Assembly (NCBI GenBank): GCA_016932095.1
Contig: JAFGDN010000025.1
Coordinates: forward strand, 1-47,900
Source of the DNA: Sedimentisphaerales bacterium
GTDB taxonomy: Bacteria; Planctomycetota; Phycisphaerae; Sedimentisphaerales; Anaerobacaceae
Reading direction: 5' to 3'
DNA: 47,900 nt
Shown in pieces: positions 9,795 through 20,889 of the stretch. The notes under the pieces are model-generated. The model saw only the letters and a program-made list of their open reading frames with translations, was not told the origin of the DNA and made no database searches. Within the stretch, counting starts at the first letter, position 1. Every line of letters starts with the position of its first letter. Made by a program: the position numbers and the translations under genes.

Positions 9795-9808
9795 TACCCC
9801 CAAGGGGA
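9795..9808. other. attL core (left 14-bp direct repeat)
   Basis: TACCCCCAAGGGGA is identical to 20791-20804. The next base differs (G here, C on the right), and TCGAA then matches again, as expected when the left copy continues into element sequence and the right into tRNA-Glu. Translated in the integrase frame it encodes YPQGE. Confidence 0.85.
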
Positions 9809-9995
9809 GTCGAATAAAATCTCACAAAGTTCGGCAGATACAAAACTTAGCGAAAGCTCAATTCCCGACAGGGTGCATAATACGGTGCATCATACCGAGG
9901 ACGGCAGTGACTTGCAACAGGTAATCGACGCCTGGCCAACACTGCCCGAGAACGTCAAATCGAAAATTATTGAGCTTATCAAGCTGGGGAAATGA
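9795..9995 (+). pseudogene. Split 3' end of the element integrase (free-form C-terminus)
   Basis: An open frame of 66 codons runs from the att core to TGA 9993-9995 and has no start codon of its own. It encodes YPQGESNK at the att core and ends with LQQVIDAWPTLPENVKSKII, resembling the C-terminal tail I associate with planctomycetal tyrosine integrases. The frame is the same as that of the integrase at the right att copy (TAC CCC CAA GGG). If the ends were joined in a circle, the integrase would read through attP into this segment and be 494 residues long instead of 460. It is thus a piece of a split gene and not ordinary decay; expression in the integrated state is unlikely. Confidence 0.75.
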
Positions 9996-9997
9996 TT

Positions 9998-10270
9998 ATG
10001 AAAAAGGCAGAATCAACTGAGCGTTTACTGAGCGTATTCGACGTGGCTATGAGGATTGGAGTTAATATAACAACAGTCAGGCGTCACATGCACGAGCTTA
10101 TGGCCAGCGGTTTACAGCGAGTAGAAATTGGTGGTAGAACGCGATTGATTCGGTTTAGAGAGGATTCACTAAACCGGATGATTCGCCGAGCGGTCGAGCG
10201 TGATGAACCGCTCATTAAAAATAGTTGTGTGCAGTCGGGGCCAGGTGTATCTGGTCCCGTGAATACTTGA
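9998..10270 (+). CDS. Small HTH DNA-binding protein, candidate excisionase/recombination directionality factor
   Basis: The ~90-residue basic protein has a helix-turn-helix pattern LLSVFDVAMRIGVNITTVRR (about residues 11-30), then a wing-like IGGRTRLIRF segment. This layout fits MerR-like/excisionase-type regulators. ATG 9998 has GGGGA 8 nt upstream; the earlier ATG 9992 overlaps the integrase-tail stop as ATGA. In the circular form it would follow integrase directly, which is the usual place for an excisionase; in the integrated form it is the first gene at the left end. Function is inferred from fold and position. Confidence 0.6.
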   Translation: MKKAESTERLLSVFDVAMRIGVNITTVRRHMHELMASGLQRVEIGGRTRLIRFREDSLNRMIRRAVERDEPLIKNSCVQSGPGVSGPVNT

Positions 10271-10278
10271 ACCCCGGG

Positions 10279-10302
10279 GCCCGCTGCGGGTTATCAGCGG
10301 GC
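10279..10302 (+). terminator. GC-rich hairpin after the HTH gene
   Basis: GCCCGCT (10279-10285) pairs with AGCGGGC (10296-10302) around a 10-nt loop, 8 nt after the HTH stop codon. A short A/T tract follows but not a strong T-run, so it may be a weak terminator or attenuator. Confidence 0.4.
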
Positions 10303-10328
10303 ATTTATAAAAAAGTGGAGAAACGACA

Positions 10329-10433
10329 ATGAAGAATGTAACATATACAGTCAGCGACGGTATTCAGATTTCGTATCCGTTCGTAGGTTGTGCGATAATG
10401 ATTGCCCTGATGCTTGTTTGGGCAATGGTTTAA
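10329..10433 (+). CDS. 34-residue single-span membrane peptide
   Basis: ATG 10329 is preceded by GGAG (10317-10320) at 8-nt spacing. The peptide has a polar N-terminus (KNVTYTVSDGIQISYP) and one hydrophobic helix (FVGCAIMIALMLVWAMV) that reaches the stop codon. Small membrane peptides in phages act, for example, in exclusion or lysis; nothing in this sequence decides the role. It is supported by the ribosome-binding site and helix and has not been recognised as a known family. Confidence 0.45.
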   Translation: MKNVTYTVSDGIQISYPFVGCAIMIALMLVWAMV

Positions 10434-10464
10434 TCAACTATCGGTCGGGAAGGTCGGCTTGCAA

Positions 10465-10529
10465 CCGGCTAAGTGGTTTGGCCTCTGGTAAGGATATCTG
10501 GTCCCCCTCCAGAGGTCAAGCCAGCCCGG
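10465..10529 (+). ncRNA. Long structured leader upstream of the next gene
   Basis: GGTTTGGCCTCTGG (10475-10488) pairs with CCAGAGGTCAAGCC (10509-10522) through 14 consecutive pairs (two G-U) around a 20-nt loop. CCGGCT (10465-10470) can extend the helix with AGCCCGG (10523-10529) across small bulges. It sits just before the putative ribosome-binding site AAAGGGG (10531-10537) of the gene starting at 10545. It could be a cis-regulatory RNA; no known riboswitch class is recognised. Confidence 0.4.
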
Positions 10530-10544
10530 CAAAGGGGCCAGAAT

Positions 10545-11159
10545 ATGAAAGTAACAAAAAAAGCAACAAAACACAGTCCAGCCGAGGTAAAGCATCGAAT
10601 AACCGATGAATTACAAAAGAGAGCAGGTTGGAAAAGAGTTTGGCCGATGTATCCATTCCGCGAGGGTTATATTAGCTGTGTATATGACCCTGATTTTCCT
10701 CAAGCGGGACCCAAACATGGCAAAGTGATTGACCCGCTTACAAAAGAACAAATCTGCTTTATGAAACAAATCCTGCAAGCTCCATTTAATTATTCTGCTT
10801 TAGGAGCTTTCCTTATCCAAAAATGCGGAGTTGCACAACTCGATAATTTGACTTGGCCAGATATCCTTTGGCATTTTGAGTATTATGCTCGAAGGGCTGA
10901 TGCCGACGCCGGCGGTCATAAAATTGAGTCATCATCGAAAATAAATCCAGAAGGCAGCAAGGAAGCCCAAGCTTTGATATGTTTAGTGGAGCATCCTGAG
11001 TGGTCTAATACGAAAATTGCCAAAGCGATAGGAGTAAATCGAACCACTTTATACAAATGGAAATTCTTCAAAGATTCAAGAAAACTTATGAAGGAAAAAG
11101 AGCGAAAAATCCCATATGGCAATAAAGATGAGACCGGCAAAATTGAAGCTTGGGACTGA
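10545..11159 (+). CDS. Hypothetical element protein with C-terminal helix-turn-helix
   Basis: The 204-residue protein is not assigned to a named family. Residues ~1-110 are mixed and aromatic (RVWPMYPFREGYISCVYDPD, ILWHFEYYARRADADAGG). The last third holds a resolvase/terminase-small-like HTH, WSNTKIAKAIGVNRTTLYKW. ATG 10545 was chosen over the upstream 10473 because AAAGGGG precedes it and the upstream extension overlaps a strong RNA hairpin. It lies in the early region, before the replication genes, so a regulator is plausible. Confidence 0.55.
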   Translation: MKVTKKATKHSPAEVKHRITDELQKRAGWKRVWPMYPFREGYISCVYDPDFPQAGPKHGKVIDPLTKEQICFMKQILQAPFNYSALGAFLIQKCGVAQLDNLTWPDILWHFEYYARRADADAGGHKIESSSKINPEGSKEAQALICLVEHPEWSNTKIAKAIGVNRTTLYKWKFFKDSRKLMKEKERKIPYGNKDETGKIEAWD

Positions 11160-11301
11160 AATAAGTAAGTCGATAGGCGACATTTTTGGCGACACTTCAA
11201 AATTATAACTGCTGATTTTGTAAAGAGTTATCATTTTTAGTTAGCAACACCCACGCTACATTCAGCCATTATTCAGATAATGTTAAGTTTTGGATGATGG
11301 T

Positions 11302-11487
11302 ATGAAGAACAATCAAAATATAACGGACGCCTTCAACAATCCTGTTGCGTGGTTTCTCATGCTGGAACGGGCTAAACAACTCCATAATTTTGAATTGGCC
11401 GCAAAGGCACTACGTGAACTTGAACGTTTGGGGGTCATAGTTAAATACCGCAAACCAATTTTGATGAGGGAGAGAATGCAAGGATGA
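11302..11487 (+). CDS. Small hypothetical element protein
   Basis: The 61-residue, mainly helical protein (PVAWFLMLERAKQLHNFEL, ALRELERLGVIVKY) has no recognised domain. ATG 11302 follows GGATGATGG; a TTG at 11290 would add four residues. Its last codons overlap the following excisionase-like gene by 4 nt, consistent with one early operon. Confidence 0.5.
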   Translation: MKNNQNITDAFNNPVAWFLMLERAKQLHNFELAAKALRELERLGVIVKYRKPILMRERMQG

Positions 11488-11687
11488 ATGCTGCCCCCTC
11501 AATTCTGCCCCGTCTCATCAAACCGAAAGAAGCATCGCTTTATATCGCCATCAGTGAGCGGACCCTATGGGGACTGACAAAGGCAGGAACTATCGCGGCT
11601 GTAAAAGTTGGCCGAGCCGTTCGCTATGACGTGAGGGACCTTGACCATTTCATCGAGCAGAGTAAGTCACGGGGGGAATCAAAATGA
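11484..11687 (+). CDS. HTH_17/excisionase-family DNA-binding protein
   Basis: The 67-residue product has the MerR-type winged helix used by excisionase-family proteins: LIKPKEASLYIAISERTLWG, then a wing AVKVGRAVRYDVRDLDHFIE. It overlaps the preceding gene by 4 nt. It is a second candidate, beside the 9998 gene, for the directionality factor, or it may regulate the early operon. The domain call is solid; the role is inferred. Confidence 0.75.
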   Translation: MNAAPSILPRLIKPKEASLYIAISERTLWGLTKAGTIAAVKVGRAVRYDVRDLDHFIEQSKSRGESK

Positions 11688-11709
11688 TGGGAGGCAGCCA
11701 GGGACGGCT

Positions 11710-12483
11710 ATGAGCGGTAATCGAATCACTTATGTTCGCATTCCGACAGCTCTATACTCAGTGGACGGTTTGACTACGTTGCAGGTCAATGTCTTAGCTT
11801 TGATTGTGGGTTTCGACCAAGACGGCTTACAGCTTTCAAGCGAAAAACTCGCTGACGTATTTGGAGTAACGCCGCGGGCCATCGACCAGGCGGTCAAAGT
11901 GATGACTCAAAAGGGATATATTCGGGACCTTGTTGGGCAGAGTGGCAAGCGTCGCAATCTTATTGCAACCCCTGAAATCTTTTCAGTGGTTAAGGGGGAG
12001 CAACCCCTGAAAAATATTCAGAGCATCCCCGAACAAAATTCGGAGCAACCTCTGAACGATTTTCGGAAGACCTCTGAAAAATGTTCAGTGACTACCAAAC
12101 AGAAACTCAATAAACAGAAGAGAACTAAAACGTTCAGCCCGATGTCTGACGAAGTTCGATTGTCGCAATTATTGCTTGATTTAATTCTTGCACGCAAAGG
12201 CGATTACAAACGCCCTGATATTCAAATATGGGCAAGATGTATCGACTTGATGATACACATTGACCGCCGGGACCCGAAACGTATTGAAGCCGTCATCAGG
12301 TGGTGCCAGGCGGATGCTGGCAACGGTAACGGATGGGCAGGTTGGCGGGATAATATTTTATCGACAGCAAAGCTCCGCGAAAAGTTTGATAAACTGGAGC
12401 TGGCAATGGAGAATGCACGCAATGACAGAAACACAGCAGCTCGGGGACGTTTTCAGGCAGCCCCCGACGCCCTCACAATCTGA
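11710..12483 (+). CDS. Phage-type replication initiator-like protein (winged helix)
   Basis: The 257-residue protein opens ITYVRIPTALYSVDGLTTLQ and has a winged-helix domain, LADVFGVTPRAIDQAVKVMT and KGYIRDL (about 55-85). A polar linker follows, then a C-terminal segment RIEAVIRWCQ..GWRDNILSTAKLREKFD, similar to the conserved C-terminus of phage O-like/DnaD-like replication proteins. ATG 11710 starts at the conserved part; 11641 would overlap the preceding HTH gene. The next gene, which overlaps by 62 nt, encodes a helicase loader, the usual pairing for initiating replication of a phage or satellite circle. Confidence 0.7.
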   Translation: MSGNRITYVRIPTALYSVDGLTTLQVNVLALIVGFDQDGLQLSSEKLADVFGVTPRAIDQAVKVMTQKGYIRDLVGQSGKRRNLIATPEIFSVVKGEQPLKNIQSIPEQNSEQPLNDFRKTSEKCSVTTKQKLNKQKRTKTFSPMSDEVRLSQLLLDLILARKGDYKRPDIQIWARCIDLMIHIDRRDPKRIEAVIRWCQADAGNGNGWAGWRDNILSTAKLREKFDKLELAMENARNDRNTAARGRFQAAPDALTI

Positions 12484-13207
12484 AAGGCGATGTAGTTGCG
12501 GTCAAGCTATCGAGCCGGTTGGCATTGGGACCTTTATTCATTGGCCTAAAAAATGCTCGCATTGTCGAACAGTAATAGAAGCTCAGGAGCGGCTCAGAGG
12601 TATTCGCATCGGGAGAGAGAGCAGACGGGATAAGCTCCGCGGCTTACTGAAACAAAAACCGGCACCGCTGGGTGAGGAAATCATACCGCCACTGTTTGAG
12701 AAATCACACTTACGTCGATTATCACCGAAACTCAGAGCTGCTATGCTGGGTCTGCCGACAGGTCGAGGCCTGTATTTATGGGGGCCGTGCGGAGTCGGTA
12801 AAACCTATTCGATGTCTGCTCTGATACGGCATTACGTTTTATCAGGATACCAGGTTGGCCGGGTGCAGTTCACGCGGCTGCTCAGAGAGCTTCGCGGATG
12901 CTATTCAGGTTCAGGAAGCGAGCATAAAATTTTGAAATGGGTTGAGAGTGTCCCCAGATTATTCATCGAGGATTTAGGGATTGCACAGGCCCGCGAGACG
13001 GAATTTGCGACGCGGGTGCTTTTAGAGGTTGTCGATTATCGGCTTGAGCATCGTTTACCGATGTTTGTCACCAGTAACAAATCGCTTGACGAAATTGAAT
13101 CGGCTTTTGGTGAACGCATCGGTAGCAGGTTGCACGCTGCCTGTATTGTTCTACCTGTTGGTGGAGCAGATAAGCGGCGATCCGGTCCAGAGAAAGGTTT
13201 ATTTTGA
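12422..13207 (+). CDS. DnaC/IstB-like AAA+ helicase loader with N-terminal zinc ribbon
   Basis: The 261-residue ATPase has Walker A GPCGVGKT (121-128), Walker B FIEDLG (181-186), sensor-1 FVTSNKS and a C-terminal arginine pair in GSRLH, as in DnaC/DnaI. The N-terminus carries a CxC...CxxC set (C24, C26, C45, C48) that could bind zinc, as in primosomal loaders. ATG 12422 was chosen because upstream codons would lie deep inside the initiator gene. With the initiator it should recruit the host replicative helicase to the element origin. IstB transposition proteins share the ATPase fold, but no transposase is present. Confidence 0.75.
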   Translation: MTETQQLGDVFRQPPTPSQSERRCSCGQAIEPVGIGTFIHWPKKCSHCRTVIEAQERLRGIRIGRESRRDKLRGLLKQKPAPLGEEIIPPLFEKSHLRRLSPKLRAAMLGLPTGRGLYLWGPCGVGKTYSMSALIRHYVLSGYQVGRVQFTRLLRELRGCYSGSGSEHKILKWVESVPRLFIEDLGIAQARETEFATRVLLEVVDYRLEHRLPMFVTSNKSLDEIESAFGERIGSRLHAACIVLPVGGADKRRSGPEKGLF

Positions 13208-13219
13208 GGAGTAAATATC

Positions 13220-15517
13220 ATGGCTACAATCGGCTCACTTGTTGTAAATCTTATCGCTAATACTTCGCTTTTCGATAGCGGGATGCGTAAGGGACAAACC
13301 GGCCTCAAGGGTTTCGTCGCCAGCATCGACAAGACACAACGTCAAGTAATGGGTTTCGCCAAAGCTATAACAGCCGTCGCCGGAATGGCCGGTTTGACAT
13401 ATCTGGTCAAGAAGACGATGGATTCAATTGAGGCAACTGCCCAATTATCCAACCGGCTTGGCATGGCTACAGAGGACCTAATATCGCTGCAATACGCGGC
13501 CGAACAATCCGGGATGGGCACCGAGGAGATGAACAATGCCCTTGAGACGTTTGTTCGGCGAATCGGTGAAGCCCAGAGCGGCGGCGGTGCAGCGGCCAAA
13601 ACTTTAAGAGAACTTGGTTTGTCAGCTCATCAAATAGCATCCACTGACCAAACAGAAAATCTTAAAATGTTTGCTGACCGGATAAATCAACTACCCACTG
13701 CTGCGGAGCGAGCGGCTGTGGCTTATGACCTGTTCGGTAAGAAAGGCCAGGAGATGCTTAACGTGCTGGCTGGAGGCAGTGCCGGCATCGAGGAGGCCCG
13801 CAAGCGAGCCGAGCAGCTGCGTATTACATTCTCTAATTTCGATGCCGCTAAAGTGAAGGTTGCAGTAGACAAACTATATGACGTCAAGAAAATCTTAACC
13901 GCCATCGCTGAGAAAGCGGTAATTGAATTGTCACCATCTATCGCGGCCGCTGCGGAAAAACTGATTGAATTTGTAATCGCCGGTGGGGATATGCGAGCAA
14001 AAATGATAGCTGGTATAAAAGATGTCACAATAGCATTCGCCTATCTCGGTAATGGCATAAAAGTCATCATAGGATATCTTGAAGGCGTAGCTGGAATAGG
14101 AGCAACGTTAGCTACTGGTTTTGCCGGGATTCTCTCTTCGATTGGTCTTGTCTCGAAAGAATACGTAGAGGGTATGGCTGATGTTGCGAATAAGCTGATT
14201 TTAGACGCTGGTAGAGTCATAGAGGAACAATTGCCATCCGAAAAAGTGGAGGCATGGTTCGCTGACCTCGACAAACGTTCTCAGAGCATAAAGAGTGAGC
14301 TTGAAAGGGCCGCTCAGATAGCAGCGGGCTTCCCAAAACTTACATTCGCCGATATCAAAATCACCGAAGGCCTGCAGGATATGCTCGATGCTCTTGAATT
14401 TGAATACGATATGCTGAAAAAGTCAAATCGTGAAAGGGAGAGAGCTATCAAGCTGTTAAGATTCAGGAATGAGCTCGACAAGGCATACAACGTCAAAATA
14501 TCTGGAAATCTACAGGGAATAGGTCCCCAAACCGAGGGATGGGATAAATTGACGGCCGTTCAGCAAAAGGCGATTTTGTTAGACCAGCAATATCAGGATG
14601 GTCTGGCAAAATATGAGGAGCGTATGACAGGATTTGACGCATTCACGTCTAAAATGCAGGATTGGGCCGAAAGTGCGTCAAACGTCTGGGCTAATATCGG
14701 AGATGTAGCTGCACAAGCTCTGGATGGAATCAGTGCCAAGTTGACTGAGTTGATTACAACGGGTAAAGCCAACTTTAAGGAATTTGCAGCTTCGGTTATG
14801 TCTGATTTGCTTCAAATGATGATACGTGCACAGATGGTTCAGATTTTACAGAACATACCAGGTATTGGCGGAATGTTTGGCGGGGGAGCTGGTGCAGCAG
14901 GACAATCGGCTGCTGCCTCACAGTTATCTGCATCAGCAACGATGTTAAATACGGCCGGCACGGTTTTGAACACCTCAGGGACAATGCTGAACTCCGCAGG
15001 AACAATGTTGAATACGTCGGCGATTAGTATGAATACAGCCGTTGCGTTAATGAATTCATCAGGACCTACACTTTTATCCGCAGCGATGATGCAGCAGACA
15101 TCATCAGCTCTGTTAAATACGGCAGCGGTGAATCTTATGGCCGCGGCTACTGCTCAAACGGCTCAGAATATTTCCGCTGCTGCCGGGGCAAAAGGTTTGG
15201 TATTAAAGGCCGGCAAATTGTTACCTTATGCCACAGGCGGTATAATCGATAGGCCCACATTTTTCCCAATGGCCAAGGGTAATATAGGGATGATGGGAGA
15301 GGCAGGGCCCGAGGCGATAATGCCTTTAACCCGGGGACGGGATGGGCGGTTAGGTGTGAGTGCTGATGGAGGCAGTCAACCACCCGTCAATGTCAAGATT
15401 ATAAACGTGTATGATAAAAAGCAAATGATTGATGCGATAGGGACGCCTGATGGCGAAAAGAAAATCTTAAACGTGCTGAGCAGAAACAAGGGTATCGTAA
15501 AAGGTATGCTGAATTAA
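13220..15517 (+). CDS. Phage tail tape measure protein (lambda gpH-like C-terminus)
   Basis: The 765-residue protein starts IGSLVVNLIANTSLFDSGM, typical of tape measures. It has long helical stretches, hydrophobic helices near 270-310, and the diagnostic C-terminal block MGEAGPEAIMPLTRGRDG followed by LGV. It would set the length of a siphophage-type tail tube; at the usual ~0.15 nm per residue the ruler predicts roughly 115 nm. Residues ~575-612 form a heptad-like repeat (NTAGTVL, NTSGTML, NSAGTML, NTSAISM). GAGGAGT precedes ATG 13220. It is unusual that no tube, terminator or assembly-chaperone gene accompanies it. Confidence 0.9.
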   Translation: MATIGSLVVNLIANTSLFDSGMRKGQTGLKGFVASIDKTQRQVMGFAKAITAVAGMAGLTYLVKKTMDSIEATAQLSNRLGMATEDLISLQYAAEQSGMGTEEMNNALETFVRRIGEAQSGGGAAAKTLRELGLSAHQIASTDQTENLKMFADRINQLPTAAERAAVAYDLFGKKGQEMLNVLAGGSAGIEEARKRAEQLRITFSNFDAAKVKVAVDKLYDVKKILTAIAEKAVIELSPSIAAAAEKLIEFVIAGGDMRAKMIAGIKDVTIAFAYLGNGIKVIIGYLEGVAGIGATLATGFAGILSSIGLVSKEYVEGMADVANKLILDAGRVIEEQLPSEKVEAWFADLDKRSQSIKSELERAAQIAAGFPKLTFADIKITEGLQDMLDALEFEYDMLKKSNRERERAIKLLRFRNELDKAYNVKISGNLQGIGPQTEGWDKLTAVQQKAILLDQQYQDGLAKYEERMTGFDAFTSKMQDWAESASNVWANIGDVAAQALDGISAKLTELITTGKANFKEFAASVMSDLLQMMIRAQMVQILQNIPGIGGMFGGGAGAAGQSAAASQLSASATMLNTAGTVLNTSGTMLNSAGTMLNTSAISMNTAVALMNSSGPTLLSAAMMQQTSSALLNTAAVNLMAAATAQTAQNISAAAGAKGLVLKAGKLLPYATGGIIDRPTFFPMAKGNIGMMGEAGPEAIMPLTRGRDGRLGVSADGGSQPPVNVKIINVYDKKQMIDAIGTPDGEKKILNVLSRNKGIVKGMLN
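14942..15060 (+). repeat. Degenerate 21-bp/7-residue repeat in the tape measure gene
   Basis: Consecutive 7-residue units NTAGTVL, NTSGTML, NSAGTML, NTSAISM and NTAVALM begin near codon 575. The Asn/Thr/Ser-rich face with a Leu/Met at every seventh position suggests a helical ruler segment that can change length by slippage. Confidence 0.6.
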
Positions 15518-15540
15518 CATACAGAAAGAAAGGGTTATCA

Positions 15541-15768
15541 ATGATATGGATTATAATAAACATCGCAATAATGGCAGCTCTCAGCTATGGCATTTCAGCT
15601 TTGATGTCTAAGGACCCAAAGAATTACAATCAGGACCCGTCTAAGGATATCGATGTTCCGACTGCAGACGAAGGCGTCGAGGTCCCTGTCTTGTTCGGCA
15701 CCAGACGTATCAAAGGGCCAAACGTGGTTTGGTGGGGTGACCTGAAAACCAAAGCGATTAGGAAATAA
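15541..15768 (+). CDS. Small phage tail-type protein fragment
   Basis: The 75-residue product has an N-terminal membrane-like helix (IWIIINIAIMAALSYGISAL) followed by VPTADEGVEVPVLFGTRRIK and GPNVVWWGDL. That stretch is familiar from larger phage tail/tip proteins; here the protein stops soon after, so it may be a truncated version or a natural short form. AAAGGG lies upstream of ATG 15541. It follows the tape measure by 23 nt and is probably in the same operon. Confidence 0.55.
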   Translation: MIWIIINIAIMAALSYGISALMSKDPKNYNQDPSKDIDVPTADEGVEVPVLFGTRRIKGPNVVWWGDLKTKAIRK

Positions 15769-15770
15769 TT

Positions 15771-16070
15771 GTGGACGATTTTCAAAAAGAATTTAACGAG
15801 CTTTGCAGAACCACAAGCACTCTTGAAGTGCAATTCGCTAATGCCCTGCAAAAAACTCATGGACTCGAACTCGGGACTCTGGACAATCTCTTGGGGGTAA
15901 AATCCCAGCTTGAATTGTTTATAGCAGATTTCGAGGATTCTATCCGCCTATTGAATGATGGAGAGCATGAAATCACCATTGATTACCTGTCAGAATGGAC
16001 TAATAGTTGTCGGGAAGCTTTGAAAAGAACAGAGGAAAAAATTGAAAAAGGTGATTACAAAACAGAGTGA
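15771..16070 (+). CDS. Hypothetical acidic helical element protein
   Basis: The 99-residue protein starts with GTG 15771, 2 nt after the preceding stop codon. It is acidic and predicted helical (DFQKEFNELCRTT, FIADFEDSIRLLND, REALKRTEEKIEKGD). No domain is recognised. Its place before the capsid gene could suit a scaffold or head-decoration role, but nothing in the sequence shows this. Confidence 0.5.
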   Translation: MDDFQKEFNELCRTTSTLEVQFANALQKTHGLELGTLDNLLGVKSQLELFIADFEDSIRLLNDGEHEITIDYLSEWTNSCREALKRTEEKIEKGDYKTE

Positions 16071-16072
16071 TT

Positions 16073-16196
16073 CACGCCACGGCGGTTTTGCTCTGATTTT
16101 TTTGTGGTTAGTTTATTGTGATGAAGTATTTTGCACGCCACGGCGGCTAAAGCTTCAAGGAAACAGAAATAATACTTTATCAAAAGGAGCTTTATT
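16073..16196 (+). repeat. Two copies of CACGCCACGGCGG before the capsid gene
   Basis: CACGCCACGGCGG occurs at 16073-16085 and 16134-16146. The second copy continues CTAAAGCTTCA, and a diverged form (GCCACGGCAACTAAAACTTCA) lies after the capsid gene at 17529-17549. The spacing is 48 bp and there are only two close copies, so it is not a CRISPR array. AAAAGGAG near 16182-16189 is the capsid ribosome-binding site. Confidence 0.55.
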
Positions 16197-17495
16197 ATGA
16201 AGATTTTAGCAGGTATGCGTAAAAAATTATATGACTTGAGCAAAATTGAAGATACACGCAGTTTGTCTGACGTGGAGCTTGCCGAGGTCGAGCGGCTTGA
16301 AAATGAAATTGTCAAGCGTAAAGAATTCCTCGAAAAGCAACGTCAACTCGATGTAGCTGATGACGGCGATGAAAGCCAGGATATCGGTATCGGTTTAGCA
16401 GCACCACCGAAGGGCAAAAAAGGCAAGGTGGATAACGGCGGCTTTGAGAATGCAGGTGAGTTCATGCAGGCCCTTTACCGCAAGTCACGTGGTGAAGGAT
16501 TTGATGACCGCTTGAGGAAATTGCAGGTTGCCGCGGTATCCAATTCGGATACAGGTGGGTTCGCGGTGCCGACGCAGTTTGTGCAGAGGGCTTTCGATAA
16601 CGGCCCTGCGGGGGAAAACGGCATTGTGCTGTTGAACCTGTGCGATAAGGTCCCGATGACCAGTGATAAGATGACTGCCCCAGGCCTGCAAAATAACAGC
16701 CACGCCGTTGCACCGTTCGGCATCGCGTGGTCACAGGTTAGCGAAAATGGGGACATTCCCGAAACCGATGTTGAGCTTCGAGCCATTCAGCTTGAGGCAT
16801 ATAAATCCGCCTGTTTGTTCTATGCCTCGAACGAATGGCTGGCTGATAGTGCTCCGTTTATGAGAAATCGGCTCAGCGAAATATTCAACAACTCGCTCCG
16901 TTGGTATATCGAGAACAAGATTATTACCGGCACGGGAGTTGGAATGCCAAAGGGTGCTCTCAATGCGGCTGCGACGTTGCAGATTAACAAGGAAACGGGG
17001 CAGGCAGCGGACACGATTATGACCGAGAATATCCTCAAGATGTGGGCCAGGTTGTTGCCTGGTAGTCATAGTCGGGCTATCTGGATGGCGAATCAGACGT
17101 GCTTCCCTGAGCTGGCAGCATTGAAGTTGATAATCAAGAACGTCGCCGGCACCGAGAACGTGGGTGGAAGCTTTGTGCCCCTGCTGCAAATCAACAACAG
17201 CGGCATCGCTGGCCAACCCGCGACAAGCATCCTCGGCCGGCCGTTACATTTCTCGGAGCACTTGCCGGTATTGGGCGATGCAGGGGATCTTATCCTAATC
17301 GACCCGCTGCTGTATGTTCTTGGTGACAGGCAGCAATTGGTCTTGGATGCAAGTCCGCATTTCAAATTCAATCAGGATAAGACAACATTCAGAGGCAAGG
17401 CAAGGTTTGATGGTGAGCCGGCATTGAGCAGCACGTTCACGCCAAAGAACGGTGACACGTGTGGCTGGTGTGTGAAGATACAGGCACGGACCTAA
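16197..17495 (+). CDS. HK97-fold major capsid protein
   Basis: The 432-residue protein has an N-terminal coiled coil (VELAEVERLENEIVKRKEFL) and an acidic linker like the HK97 delta/scaffold domain. The mature part begins after about residue 105 with the family start SNSDTGGFAVPTQFVQ. It contains the E-loop/spine-type segments GIAWSQVSENGDIPETD and TDVELRAIQLEAYKSAC, and a P-loop/axial region with LGRPLHFSEHLP and LILIDPLLYVLGDR. The family normally needs a protease to remove the delta domain; no protease gene is present. AAAAGGAG precedes ATG 16197. Flanked by short direct repeats. Confidence 0.93.
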   Translation: MKILAGMRKKLYDLSKIEDTRSLSDVELAEVERLENEIVKRKEFLEKQRQLDVADDGDESQDIGIGLAAPPKGKKGKVDNGGFENAGEFMQALYRKSRGEGFDDRLRKLQVAAVSNSDTGGFAVPTQFVQRAFDNGPAGENGIVLLNLCDKVPMTSDKMTAPGLQNNSHAVAPFGIAWSQVSENGDIPETDVELRAIQLEAYKSACLFYASNEWLADSAPFMRNRLSEIFNNSLRWYIENKIITGTGVGMPKGALNAAATLQINKETGQAADTIMTENILKMWARLLPGSHSRAIWMANQTCFPELAALKLIIKNVAGTENVGGSFVPLLQINNSGIAGQPATSILGRPLHFSEHLPVLGDAGDLILIDPLLYVLGDRQQLVLDASPHFKFNQDKTTFRGKARFDGEPALSSTFTPKNGDTCGWCVKIQART

Positions 17496-17691
17496 AATGG
17501 TCTGAGTTATCCTTGAGGGATTTGGTATGCCACGGCAACTAAAACTTCATTGATAGCTAACAGTTTCATTCTGACCTGTCAGGACTTGTAGTCATTGGCA
17601 GGGTAAAATCCTCTCTTAAACAGAGTGAGGGCGAAAAGGCAATGATAAAGCTTAAGTAGCCCTCACAATGTTATAAAGCGATGGGGCGACG

Positions 17692-17877
17692 ATGCGAAAA
17701 AGAGAGCCGGATGTTGTTGAGTTAGCTAAGAAACAGAGGCACTTGTATCTATTGCAAAAGGTCAAGCGGTGCCAGTTACTTAGCATACCAGAGATAGGTG
17801 AGCTTGAGTATTATGAACGCATTAGAGCAAACAACAACAAACGCAAGCGTGGCAGTAAGGCCCAAGACGTTCACTGA
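17692..17877 (+). CDS. Small basic hypothetical element protein
   Basis: The 61-residue basic protein (MRKREPDVVELAKKQRHLYL, NNNKRKRGSK) has no recognised domain. It overlaps the HNH gene by 65 nt in another frame. GGGGCGACG before the ATG is a moderate ribosome-binding site. It might be a head-associated DNA-binding protein, but that is not shown. Confidence 0.4.
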   Translation: MRKREPDVVELAKKQRHLYLLQKVKRCQLLSIPEIGELEYYERIRANNNKRKRGSKAQDVH

Positions 17878-18166
17878 GTTGAGGGAAGGGCAAAGGCACA
17901 GTCCAGTTGTTACTCGTGATAGTGCTTGTGAGCGTGGTTATAACTATCGCTGGCGTAAGGCACGCATTGCATACCTGATTAAGAACCCACTGTGTGTTGA
18001 GTGTGCGTCCGAAGGCCGCACTGAGCAGGCAGTGGTTGTTGACCACATCATTCCCCATAAAGGTAATCGTGAATTGTTTTGGAATAAGAACAATTGGCAG
18101 GGCTTATGTAAACGTCACCATGATATTAAAACTGCTAAACAAGATGGGGGATTCGGTCGCGTATGA
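17813..18166 (+). CDS. HNH endonuclease of the phage packaging type
   Basis: The 117-residue nuclease has the HNH core: CVEC (zinc ligands), VVVDHIIPHKGN, NWQGLCKRHHDIKTAKQDGG, with the catalytic His in DHIIPH and the closing CxxxHxxKT signature. HNH proteins of this size next to terminase small subunit genes are required with terminase for cos cleavage in HK97- and phiSLT-like phages. Start is ATG 17813; GTG 17798 is an alternative. A cos-like region and the terminase small subunit follow at once. Confidence 0.85.
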   Translation: MNALEQTTTNASVAVRPKTFTELREGQRHSPVVTRDSACERGYNYRWRKARIAYLIKNPLCVECASEGRTEQAVVVDHIIPHKGNRELFWNKNNWQGLCKRHHDIKTAKQDGGFGRV

Positions 18167-18211
18167 TTAAAGATAATTGTATATGTTCGTTGTCTTTAAT
18201 GTGCATAGGCA

Positions 18212-18301
18212 GGGGGGGACATAATCCCTACAGTCCGAGAATTTGTAGACCGCGTCCCAGCTCGCTCTTTTTTTTGTCAAAATTCGACAGGGGGGGGGTA
18301 A
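18212..18301. other. Candidate cos (packaging) site
   Basis: Between the HNH and terminase genes lies a ~90-bp stretch bounded by G-runs (18212-18218, seven G; 18290-18298, nine G). It contains ATAATCCCTACAGTC, GACCGCG and an 8-T run followed by GTCAAAATTCG. This arrangement resembles the region between HNH and P27-type small terminase genes of cos phages, where the cohesive-end site lies. The exact nick positions cannot be read from sequence. Confidence 0.5.
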
Positions 18302-18319
18302 AGGTGAAAAAGGACAATA

Positions 18320-18790
18320 ATGGGTAGGCCGAGAAAGCCAACAACACTGCTTAAAATACACGGAACTTTCCGTGAGGATAGACGTGCAACAGACGAACCG
18401 ATGCCAGCCATTGCTATTCCGTCGATGCCGAAATTTCTTAAGGGTGAAGCCGCTGCGGAGTGGGAGCGTGTCGCCCCGCTACTTGCCAAGATGAAATGTT
18501 TGACTGAATGGGATAGGTCACTGCTCGCGGCCTACTGTTTCGAATGGGGCGTTTACGTTGAGCTCTGTAAAAAGGTCAAGCTCAAAGACCTTACCATTAC
18601 CACGGTAAGCGGTAACAAGATTTATAATCCACTTTTAGCATCTCGAAACAAAGCATTGAGCAATCTAAAAGAGCTTGCCATTCAGTTCGGCTTAAGCCCG
18701 AGCTCGCGTTCACGGCTATCGGTCAGTGAAGAGGAAGAATCTAATCCGTTCCTTGCATTATTGCAACGAAGGGGTATACGGGGCAGTTGA
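18320..18790 (+). CDS. Phage terminase small subunit, P27 family
   Basis: The 156-residue protein opens with the P27 signature GRPRKPTTLLKIHGTFREDR and continues with FLKGEAAAEWERVAPLLAKM, LTEWDRSLLAAYC and KALSNLKELAIQFGLSPSSR, all typical of the family. It should recognise the adjacent cos-like site and select DNA for packaging. In phages it is followed by terminase large subunit; here only about 250 bp separate it from an unrelated gene, so the motor ATPase must come from elsewhere or is lost. AAGGAC precedes ATG 18320. Confidence 0.92.
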   Translation: MGRPRKPTTLLKIHGTFREDRRATDEPMPAIAIPSMPKFLKGEAAAEWERVAPLLAKMKCLTEWDRSLLAAYCFEWGVYVELCKKVKLKDLTITTVSGNKIYNPLLASRNKALSNLKELAIQFGLSPSSRSRLSVSEEEESNPFLALLQRRGIRGS

Positions 18791-18886
18791 CGCGGACTTT
18801 TTCGATTACAGGCGGTATTTTGTGCGTATTTTGGGGTTCTGGCAGGGAAGCCGACCGTTTTACAGGACGTGATTATTCAATAAAAT

Positions 18887-18915
18887 TTGGTGAACGGGTG
18901 AAAATTTGTTATACT
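18887..18915 (+). promoter_or_regulatory. Candidate promoter before the structured RNA
   Basis: TTGGTG (18887-18892) and TATACT (18910-18915) are separated by 17 bp. The -10 matches the sigma-70 consensus at five of six positions, the -35 at three. Initiation about seven bases downstream would place +1 at or next to the first base of the inverted repeat at 18922. Confidence 0.45.
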
Positions 18916-18921
18916 TTAAGT

Positions 18922-19015
18922 GTTAGAACCTTAAGATGCAATTCCACCGAACATTTATGGCCGGGCGTGGTTTGTCCGTAAGGGGCAGCCGTTCCTCGTA
19001 TCTTGAGGTTCTAAC
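18922..19015 (+). ncRNA. Candidate structured RNA closed by a 16-bp stem
   Basis: GTTAGAACCTTAAGAT (18922-18937) pairs with ATCTTGAGGTTCTAAC (19000-19015) over all 16 positions with a single G-U. The 62-nt loop is GC-rich and can form smaller helices (for example CCAC with GTGG and GAAC with GTTC). It sits in the leader of the gene at 19047, with a promoter just before it. It may be a leader regulator, a small RNA, or a DNA site such as an origin. No known family is recognised. Confidence 0.5.
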
Positions 19016-19046
19016 AACGACCGGCCGCTTCTATTTGGGGTGATTT

Positions 19047-19523
19047 ATGAGGAGCAATAAAAGAACGTTTTACGCAGAGGATTTAGGAGCTTGGGGATTC
19101 ACACAACAAGAGATTGACGCCCTTGTTCAAAAAGACGTCATAGCAGCGGCTAAGAAAATCGAAAATCCTGTTCTATTTACGTTTTCGCCCAAGGTGGTTC
19201 GCTGGCTTTTATATGCCTTAGAACATAAGACCACTAATCACCCTTGCGAGGGTATCGACCAAGAAAATCTAAACATAGACCTGAAATTTGCAAAAGCAGA
19301 ATTCGCCAAATATCCGGCTGGGCTTCACGGCCGTATCATCGAGGCCATATACAAGGACCTGCCTGAATTTGAGATTGAATGCAATAAAGAGAGAGAGGAA
19401 GAACGGCTCTGCAACGAATGGACGGCCCTCCTCGATAACAAAACAACGGACGAAATCAGGGCTATGATTACTCAAGTGAAAGCATGTGAACAAGGGCGGT
19501 GTGTAAATGGCAAGCGTAATTAG
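19047..19523 (+). CDS. Hypothetical element protein upstream of integrase
   Basis: The 158-residue, charged, mostly helical protein (FYAEDLGAWGFTQQEIDALV, PKVVRWLLYALEHK, CNKEREEERLCNEW) has no recognised domain. GGGGTG precedes ATG 19047. It overlaps the integrase start by 17 nt, so the two are probably co-translated, and its leader contains the 16-bp-stem RNA. A role tied to integration control is possible by position only. Confidence 0.6.
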   Translation: MRSNKRTFYAEDLGAWGFTQQEIDALVQKDVIAAAKKIENPVLFTFSPKVVRWLLYALEHKTTNHPCEGIDQENLNIDLKFAKAEFAKYPAGLHGRIIEAIYKDLPEFEIECNKEREEERLCNEWTALLDNKTTDEIRAMITQVKACEQGRCVNGKRN

Positions 19524-20889
19524 ACAAAAAACAGATAGCGGGATTCGATATCTAATCCAGCTTAGCCCGGGTGAAAACGAGGCACGGCCGAAAATCAGCT
19601 TGGGTTATGTAACCAAGAGCCAGGCCGAGGCCGCTAAGCTCAATATCGAAAGCGTTATCAAATGCAAAAACACGGGTGCCATAGTATCACCCGCGGTGCA
19701 GGAATGGCTGATAGGCATAGCCGACGGCCTTAGAAAACGCCTGACGGTCCTCAAAATTATCGAGTCGAAAAAAAGCGGCCCGAGCATCACGGTTGCTGAA
19801 TGGGTGAGCCGGTATATTCAAAGCCGTCCCGACGTCAAGGCAATTACGACGGGCAAGTGGCAGAACGCCGCGAATAAGCTCTCAGCTTTTTTCAGGGGGC
19901 AAAACATCGAGGACGTCACGGTTCAACAGGCAAAAGATTTCAGGGTTTATTTGAAATCGGACCAGCTCTCAGAGAATACCGTGCGGAGATTGATAGGTCT
20001 ATCCAGACAGTTTTTTAAGGCCGCGATTGACGCCGGCCGTCTGGATAAGAATCCGTTCGCGGGGCAGCCGATAGCAGTCAGGGCCAACCCGGCAAGGTTC
20101 TTTTACGTGGGGCAGGAAATGGCTTTGAAGGTCCTCGATGCTTGCCCGGATGCTCAATGGCGGCTCATATTTGGCCTGACAAGGTGGGGCGGCCTGCGTT
20201 GCCCCAGTGAGGTCCTTCGGCTCGAATGGCAGGACGTGGATTTTGAGCATGACCGCTTTACCGTTCACGCCTGTAAAACAGAACATCATGCCGATAGCGG
20301 CATCAGAACGGTCCCGATGTTTCCTGAGCTGAGGCCGTTGTTTCAAGATGCCTTTGACAAGGCCGAGGCGGGGGACGTTTATTGTATCACTCGTTATAGG
20401 GACAAATCGGTAAATTTACGGACAAGCATGTCGAAAATTATCCGCAGAGCTGGGCTTGAGGTTTGGCCGAAGATATTTCAGAATCTCAGGAGCACCCGGG
20501 AAACCGAGCTGTTCAAAATGACTCACGGCAACGTCAAGGCCGTCTGTAAATGGATAGGTAACAGTCCAGAGATTGCAATGCAGCATTACGCACAAGTCAC
20601 CGAAGCGGACATTCAGGAAGCGGCCAAGCTATCACTGATAAGCGATGCCGAAAGTCGGGTGCAAAAAACGGTGCATAATCCGGTGCAGACACCCGTTGCA
20701 ATGAATCGCACCGAGTCGCAAGCGATTGTTGTAAATCCTTGTGGTTACGAAACCAAGCGAGAGTTTGCGACATTGTGCGAAAATAAAAATTACCCCCAAG
20801 GGGACTCGAACCCCTGTCGCCGGGATGAGAACCCGGTATCCTGGGCCGCTAGACGATGGGGGCGGTTTTTATTTTCGATTTCAGTATAA
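19507..20889 (+). CDS. int: Tyrosine recombinase/phage integrase (integrated form)
   Basis: The 460-residue frame has a core-binding SAM-like domain (about 95-190: VAEWVSRYIQSRP, IEDVTVQQAKDFRVYLKSD) and a catalytic domain with Arg231 in WGGLRCPSEVLRLEW, Arg328 in QNLRSTRETEL (Gln325 replaces the usual His of HxxR), KWIGNSPE in place of the GHS region, and nucleophile Tyr361 in MQHYAQV. The att core falls at codons 429-433. Codons after that read antisense through tRNA-Glu and are host sequence, so the natural element product probably ends with the tail encoded at 9795-9995. It overlaps the upstream unknown gene. Confidence 0.93.
   Translation: MASVIRQKTDSGIRYLIQLSPGENEARPKISLGYVTKSQAEAAKLNIESVIKCKNTGAIVSPAVQEWLIGIADGLRKRLTVLKIIESKKSGPSITVAEWVSRYIQSRPDVKAITTGKWQNAANKLSAFFRGQNIEDVTVQQAKDFRVYLKSDQLSENTVRRLIGLSRQFFKAAIDAGRLDKNPFAGQPIAVRANPARFFYVGQEMALKVLDACPDAQWRLIFGLTRWGGLRCPSEVLRLEWQDVDFEHDRFTVHACKTEHHADSGIRTVPMFPELRPLFQDAFDKAEAGDVYCITRYRDKSVNLRTSMSKIIRRAGLEVWPKIFQNLRSTRETELFKMTHGNVKAVCKWIGNSPEIAMQHYAQVTEADIQEAAKLSLISDAESRVQKTVHNPVQTPVAMNRTESQAIVVNPCGYETKREFATLCENKNYPQGDSNPCRRDENPVSWAARRWGRFLFSISV
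20791..20804. other. attR core (right 14-bp direct repeat, in tRNA-Glu 3' end)
   Basis: TACCCCCAAGGGGA is identical to 9795-9808. It covers the discriminator base, the acceptor 3' strand and the first part of the T-arm of tRNA-Glu. Everything to the right is host sequence and the tRNA is intact. Confidence 0.87.
20791..20863 (-). tRNA. tRNA-Glu (anticodon CTC)
   Basis: On the minus strand the sequence folds as a 73-nt tRNA: acceptor GCCCCCA with TGGGGGT, anticodon stem CCGGG/CCCGG around loop TTCTCAT (anticodon CTC, plus positions 20827-20829), T-stem AGGGG/CCCCT with TTCGAGT loop, discriminator A, no encoded CCA. Its 3' end is the attachment site of the element. Confidence 0.95.

Follow-up and report, generated by a model that had tools for sequence, protein, structure and literature searches.

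A planctomycete provirus-like element whose excision would restore a full-length integrase and an operon-type junction

When the attachment site of an integrative element lies inside its own integrase gene, what becomes of that gene, and of the gene that would follow it in the circle, as the element changes state? The question is raised by a locus in the window (the whole 47,900-nucleotide stretch of DNA that was analysed, from a Sedimentisphaerales bacterium), where a direct repeat search found an exact 14-nt att core, TACCCCCAAGGGGA, at 9795-9808 and at 20791-20804. Widened to 20 nt (9795-9814 and 20791-20810), the two copies have one mismatch, and the distance from the core at 9795 to the core at 20791 gives an element of 10,996 bp. 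The features that define its ends, and the integrase gene that they divide, are listed here.

9795-9814, + strand: attL core, which marks the element's left end, a direct repeat of 20791-20810
20791-20810, + strand: attR core, the repeat of attL, inside the 3' end of the tRNA-Glu gene and also inside the integrase frame
20791-20863, - strand: tRNA-Glu(CTC) gene, from a tRNA call, the integration target; its 3' end is the right copy of the core
19507-20889, + strand: tyrosine integrase gene (int), encoding 460 aa when integrated, the C-terminus then being tRNA-derived, and 494 aa in the reconstructed circle
9815-9995, + strand: detached 3' tail of int, continuing its frame across the core and conserved in relatives

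Matches in Pfam, PHROGs and NCBIfam give the element a phage-type gene content, with DnaD-like and DnaC-like replication proteins, a capsid protein, a tail assembly chaperone and a tape-measure match. An HNH nuclease, a small terminase subunit and the tyrosine integrase are also encoded. Judged by this content and by its ends, the locus is most likely a tRNA-integrating, provirus-like or phage-like element of a planctomycete host, with attP within the integrase gene. From 9795 to 20810 it measures merely 11 kb despite its replication, capsid, tail and small-terminase-type genes; it is possibly a reduced prophage or a satellite. Two different small-terminase-type proteins are present, a strong match to the P27 family at 18320-18790 and a weak match to phrog_7344:

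10473-11159, + strand: 228-aa helix-turn-helix (HTH) protein, weakly like terminase small subunits (phrog_7344, E 4e-6)

A 158-aa protein directly upstream of int (19047-19523) has no Pfam, PHROGs or NCBIfam match.

The integrase itself matches Phage_integrase in Pfam with 36.0 bits, against a cut-off of 27.1. Its frame crosses the right core, enters the antisense strand of the tRNA gene and ends at 20889. When the element's ends are joined in silico at the core, the frame runs on through about 60 more codons to a TGA at 9993-9995, and the core mismatch makes one integrase residue either Asp or Glu, leaving the frame unaffected. A core inside the integrase frame and a replaced C-terminus (460 versus 494 aa), found likewise in five relatives, are the anatomy of an attP within int. 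A short repeat of the VQ/VH-N-x-V-H type is present both before the core (19507-20810) and in the tail (9815-9995), as it is in several relatives. A single-sequence structure model of the tail has three helices and is a poor model (63.7 pLDDT).

The five integrase relatives, from other genomes and 44-80% identical, were each found with both element ends. Their targets are tRNA-Glu, -Arg, -Lys, -Leu and -Val genes and their cores are 20-25 nt long. All five rebuild in frame, each regaining a conserved tail of 57-72 residues, with a common motif that resembles DLQQVI-x-AWP-x-LPE-x-IKAAIKALI. Because the relatives rebuild in frame with the same tail, and because tail ends abut start codons, the reconstruction is more than chance. 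Across the order, the tail profile matches in 107 of 161 genomes, nearly always in short separate frames; one sampled genome, G001, is of the same genus as that of the window. Mean entropy over 83 tails is 0.91, 0.60 and 1.51 bits at the first, second and third codon positions, and this pattern, in which the third position varies most, indicates that the tail is under selection as protein. By this measure it is a part of a protein that is kept by selection, though each chromosomal copy examined has it severed from its integrase. An antisense T-arm motif lies at most 330 nt upstream in 58 of the 83 tails, and inside the open frame in 53, counts that include non-independent loci since some tail loci share genomes. 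The upstream part of the tail frames is often an antisense T-arm peptide, and across elements all three reading frames of it are used.

Viral contigs, phage and plasmid records and a sample of 392 genomes of the phylum yielded no gene in which integrase and tail are uninterrupted, so the circular form was not seen directly. We infer that it exists, and that a long integrase with a different activity would be made from it. Long tail-containing frames at six loci, considered as possible fused integrases, were ruled out, none of them having the catalytic motif.

The rebuilt junction concerns a second gene as well.

9986-9990, + strand: Shine-Dalgarno-like GGGGA, read from the sequence, inside the last tail codons and 7 nt before the ATG at 9998
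9998-10270 (alternative start 9992), + strand: 90-aa HTH protein with weak HTH matches only

The initial annotation had the rebuilt int TGA overlap the ATG at 9992 as ATGA and end 2 nt before the ATG at 9998, and both coordinates and frame hold. The spacing of GGGGA makes 9998 the likelier start of the HTH gene, and Shine-Dalgarno-like sites are found at equivalent positions in the relatives. At tails of other loci, a start codon falls from -4 to +3 nt of the tail stop in 28 of 82, compared with 8.8% of control stops, and when a Shine-Dalgarno-like site is required as well this becomes 26 of 82 compared with 1.9%, the next frame counted being one of 60 codons or more and the control stops being any stop triplets, not real gene ends. 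With controls of this kind, the enrichment marks an ordinary operon junction and nothing special to coupling. The boundary between tail and next gene is, from its start-stop pattern, an operon-type junction, which is not proof of coupling. In two of six elements (G041 and G044) no frame of at least 45 codons lies within 100 nt behind the tail. A strong promoter between the att core and 9998 would count against the proposal that circularisation rebuilds an int-HTH operon; a consensus scan of the + strand found none there, with nothing above chance, which is weak evidence. The Shine-Dalgarno-like site and start codon lie on the HTH gene's side of the core, so this gene may be translatable without int, in the integrated state too. 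As for the operon proposal as a whole, its longer int frame and operon-type junction are backed by the relatives, and the excisionase identity that it gave to the HTH gene is not.

Division of an integrase gene by its own integration has precedents. Genes for SSV-type archaeal integrases are split in two when the element integrates at a tRNA gene, and in SSV the two halves are non-functional. Integration at a tRNA gene likewise divides the integrase gene of the window's element; unlike in SSV, the catalytic domain is whole in the integrated form. In Myxococcus phage Mx8, according to two secondary sources (PMC4701971, PMC6070905), attP lies inside the integrase coding sequence, and integration swaps 112 C-terminal residues for 13 and changes the behaviour of the integrase; streptococcal ICEs integrated in rumA likewise have att sites within the integrase. 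Integrases that reach across attP are provided for in Islander, which names SSV beside Mx8 (PMC4383910). By sequence, the window's element resembles Mx8 in having attP within int and a replaced C-terminus. It differs in its target, which is a tRNA-Glu gene here and a tRNA gene of various kinds in the relatives, in the lost piece, which is about 60 residues with a motif common to the planctomycete order, and in that the restored integrase end also abuts the next gene. The literature searched, which is incomplete in coverage, yielded no account of such an arrangement in Planctomycetes.

The reading that we favour, with a probability of roughly 0.8, is an Mx8-type switch of the integrase C-terminus that also restores an operon junction, the HTH gene coding more probably for a regulator or accessory protein than for a directionality factor. 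Integration at attP inside int would cut off the last ~60 integrase codons, which would remain at attL, and a short tRNA-derived C-terminus would take their place. Excision and circularisation would restore the full-length integrase, with the element's next gene directly behind it and the ribosome-binding-like site of that gene within the last integrase codons. That gene would then be co-transcribed with int in the circle and readable from the int mRNA, its translation probably being coupled.

The first gene behind the tail varies between elements, and includes HTH_Tnp_1/HTH_23-like proteins, a ~100-aa HTH family, a ~220-aa unknown protein, Terminase_2 small subunits, DUF5681 and others. A wider version of the favoured reading is tentative, and we would hold it as doubtful for now: throughout a large planctomycete element family, a double switch would operate in which excision both restores the full integrase and places the first gene (often of DNA-binding or packaging type) behind int for transcription and coupled translation; the product of that gene would then be made mainly in the circular state.

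If the HTH gene is not the directionality factor, a better candidate lies further into the element.

11484-11687, + strand: 67-aa excisionase-family protein, the best candidate directionality factor (TIGR01764, phrog_66, relatives upstream of int)

This protein passes TIGR01764 in NCBIfam narrowly, with 29.7 bits against a cut-off of 28.8, and matches phrog_66 in PHROGs with E 1.2e-7. Relatives of its gene are found upstream of int in 12 related elements, 157-1333 nt away in eleven and 2.9 kb away in one (L203 and G047, which are the same contig, are counted once), and this order is the same in the integrated and circular forms. Given its family score and its conservation with int, the suggestion that integration uncouples the directionality factor from its recombinase is not supported. 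Like other members of the excisionase family (TIGR01764/HTH_17), it is a small HTH protein of an integrative element and reaches the curated score, unlike the product of 9998-10270, which falls short of it.

On the evidence of that score and those upstream relatives, it is somewhat probable that 11484-11687 encodes the directionality factor and that the int-to-HTH junction serves the control of replication, packaging or immunity in the circular form. The occurrence of small terminase subunits among the first genes of other elements is consistent with this. Against it, the gene stands ~8 kb from int in the window, and HTH_17-type proteins can also be repressors, its role in directionality being that of a candidate by sequence.

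Could the tail and the adjacent start instead be relics, now functionless, of an element that has decayed? In other genomes some loci of the tail do have stops or lack a gene behind them, and the window's element is short for a phage, but its int frame, core, tail and HTH gene are all open and the tail evolves as protein, which makes such decay unlikely.

The HTH protein at 9998-10270 stays below every curated family cut-off: its HTH_17 match in Pfam is 16.5 bits, where 27 are needed, and TIGR01764 is not listed for it in NCBIfam. It is weakly like the excisionase/regulator family phrog_66 (E 3e-4), and has a weak profile match to chain 4j2n_A 'Gp37' (E 0.21). Its single-sequence model, examined for a winged-helix fold, is poor (mean pLDDT 48.7), with the order H-H-E-E-H. 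Relatives are present in 31 of the 161 genomes, away from integrase tails and in some cases directly upstream of primase-like genes. As the initial annotation allowed, homologues that never lie next to int would count against its reading; in this sample none was found beside an integrase tail or around related integrases outside the window at the sampled loci, where the window's gene is the sole member of its family in the slot behind the tail. These matches and neighbourhoods make a regulator or an accessory DNA-binding protein a likelier identity than a directionality factor. That it is nonetheless the directionality factor, silenced or uncoupled from int by integration, would suit a small DNA-binding protein directly behind the rebuilt int and with weak phrog_66 and 'Gp37' matches, but is highly improbable in view of its place under the Pfam and NCBIfam curated cut-offs, relatives that adjoin primase-like genes and not integrases or tails, the better excisionase candidate conserved with the integrase at 11484, and the expectation that a factor lost on integration would make excision harder to start.

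The favoured reading would make the Mx8-type switch, so far described for a few integrases, a feature of a widespread planctomycete family (Planctomycetota), and makes it testable whether the excision state controls the element's first operon. It also carries a caution for annotation: the integrated 460-aa frame would not be a complete integrase, nor the orphan tail a separate gene. The tail motif offers a handle, at the protein level, for finding where elements of this kind have their left ends. In one viral contig (L161, 3875-4087) the motif ends a short frame near a recombinase-like frame and away from this integrase, so the tail alone is no proof of this integrase family. At three further loci (L099, L118 and L124) two integrase tails lie close together, which suggests that elements stand in tandem or that old left ends persist at a single tRNA gene.
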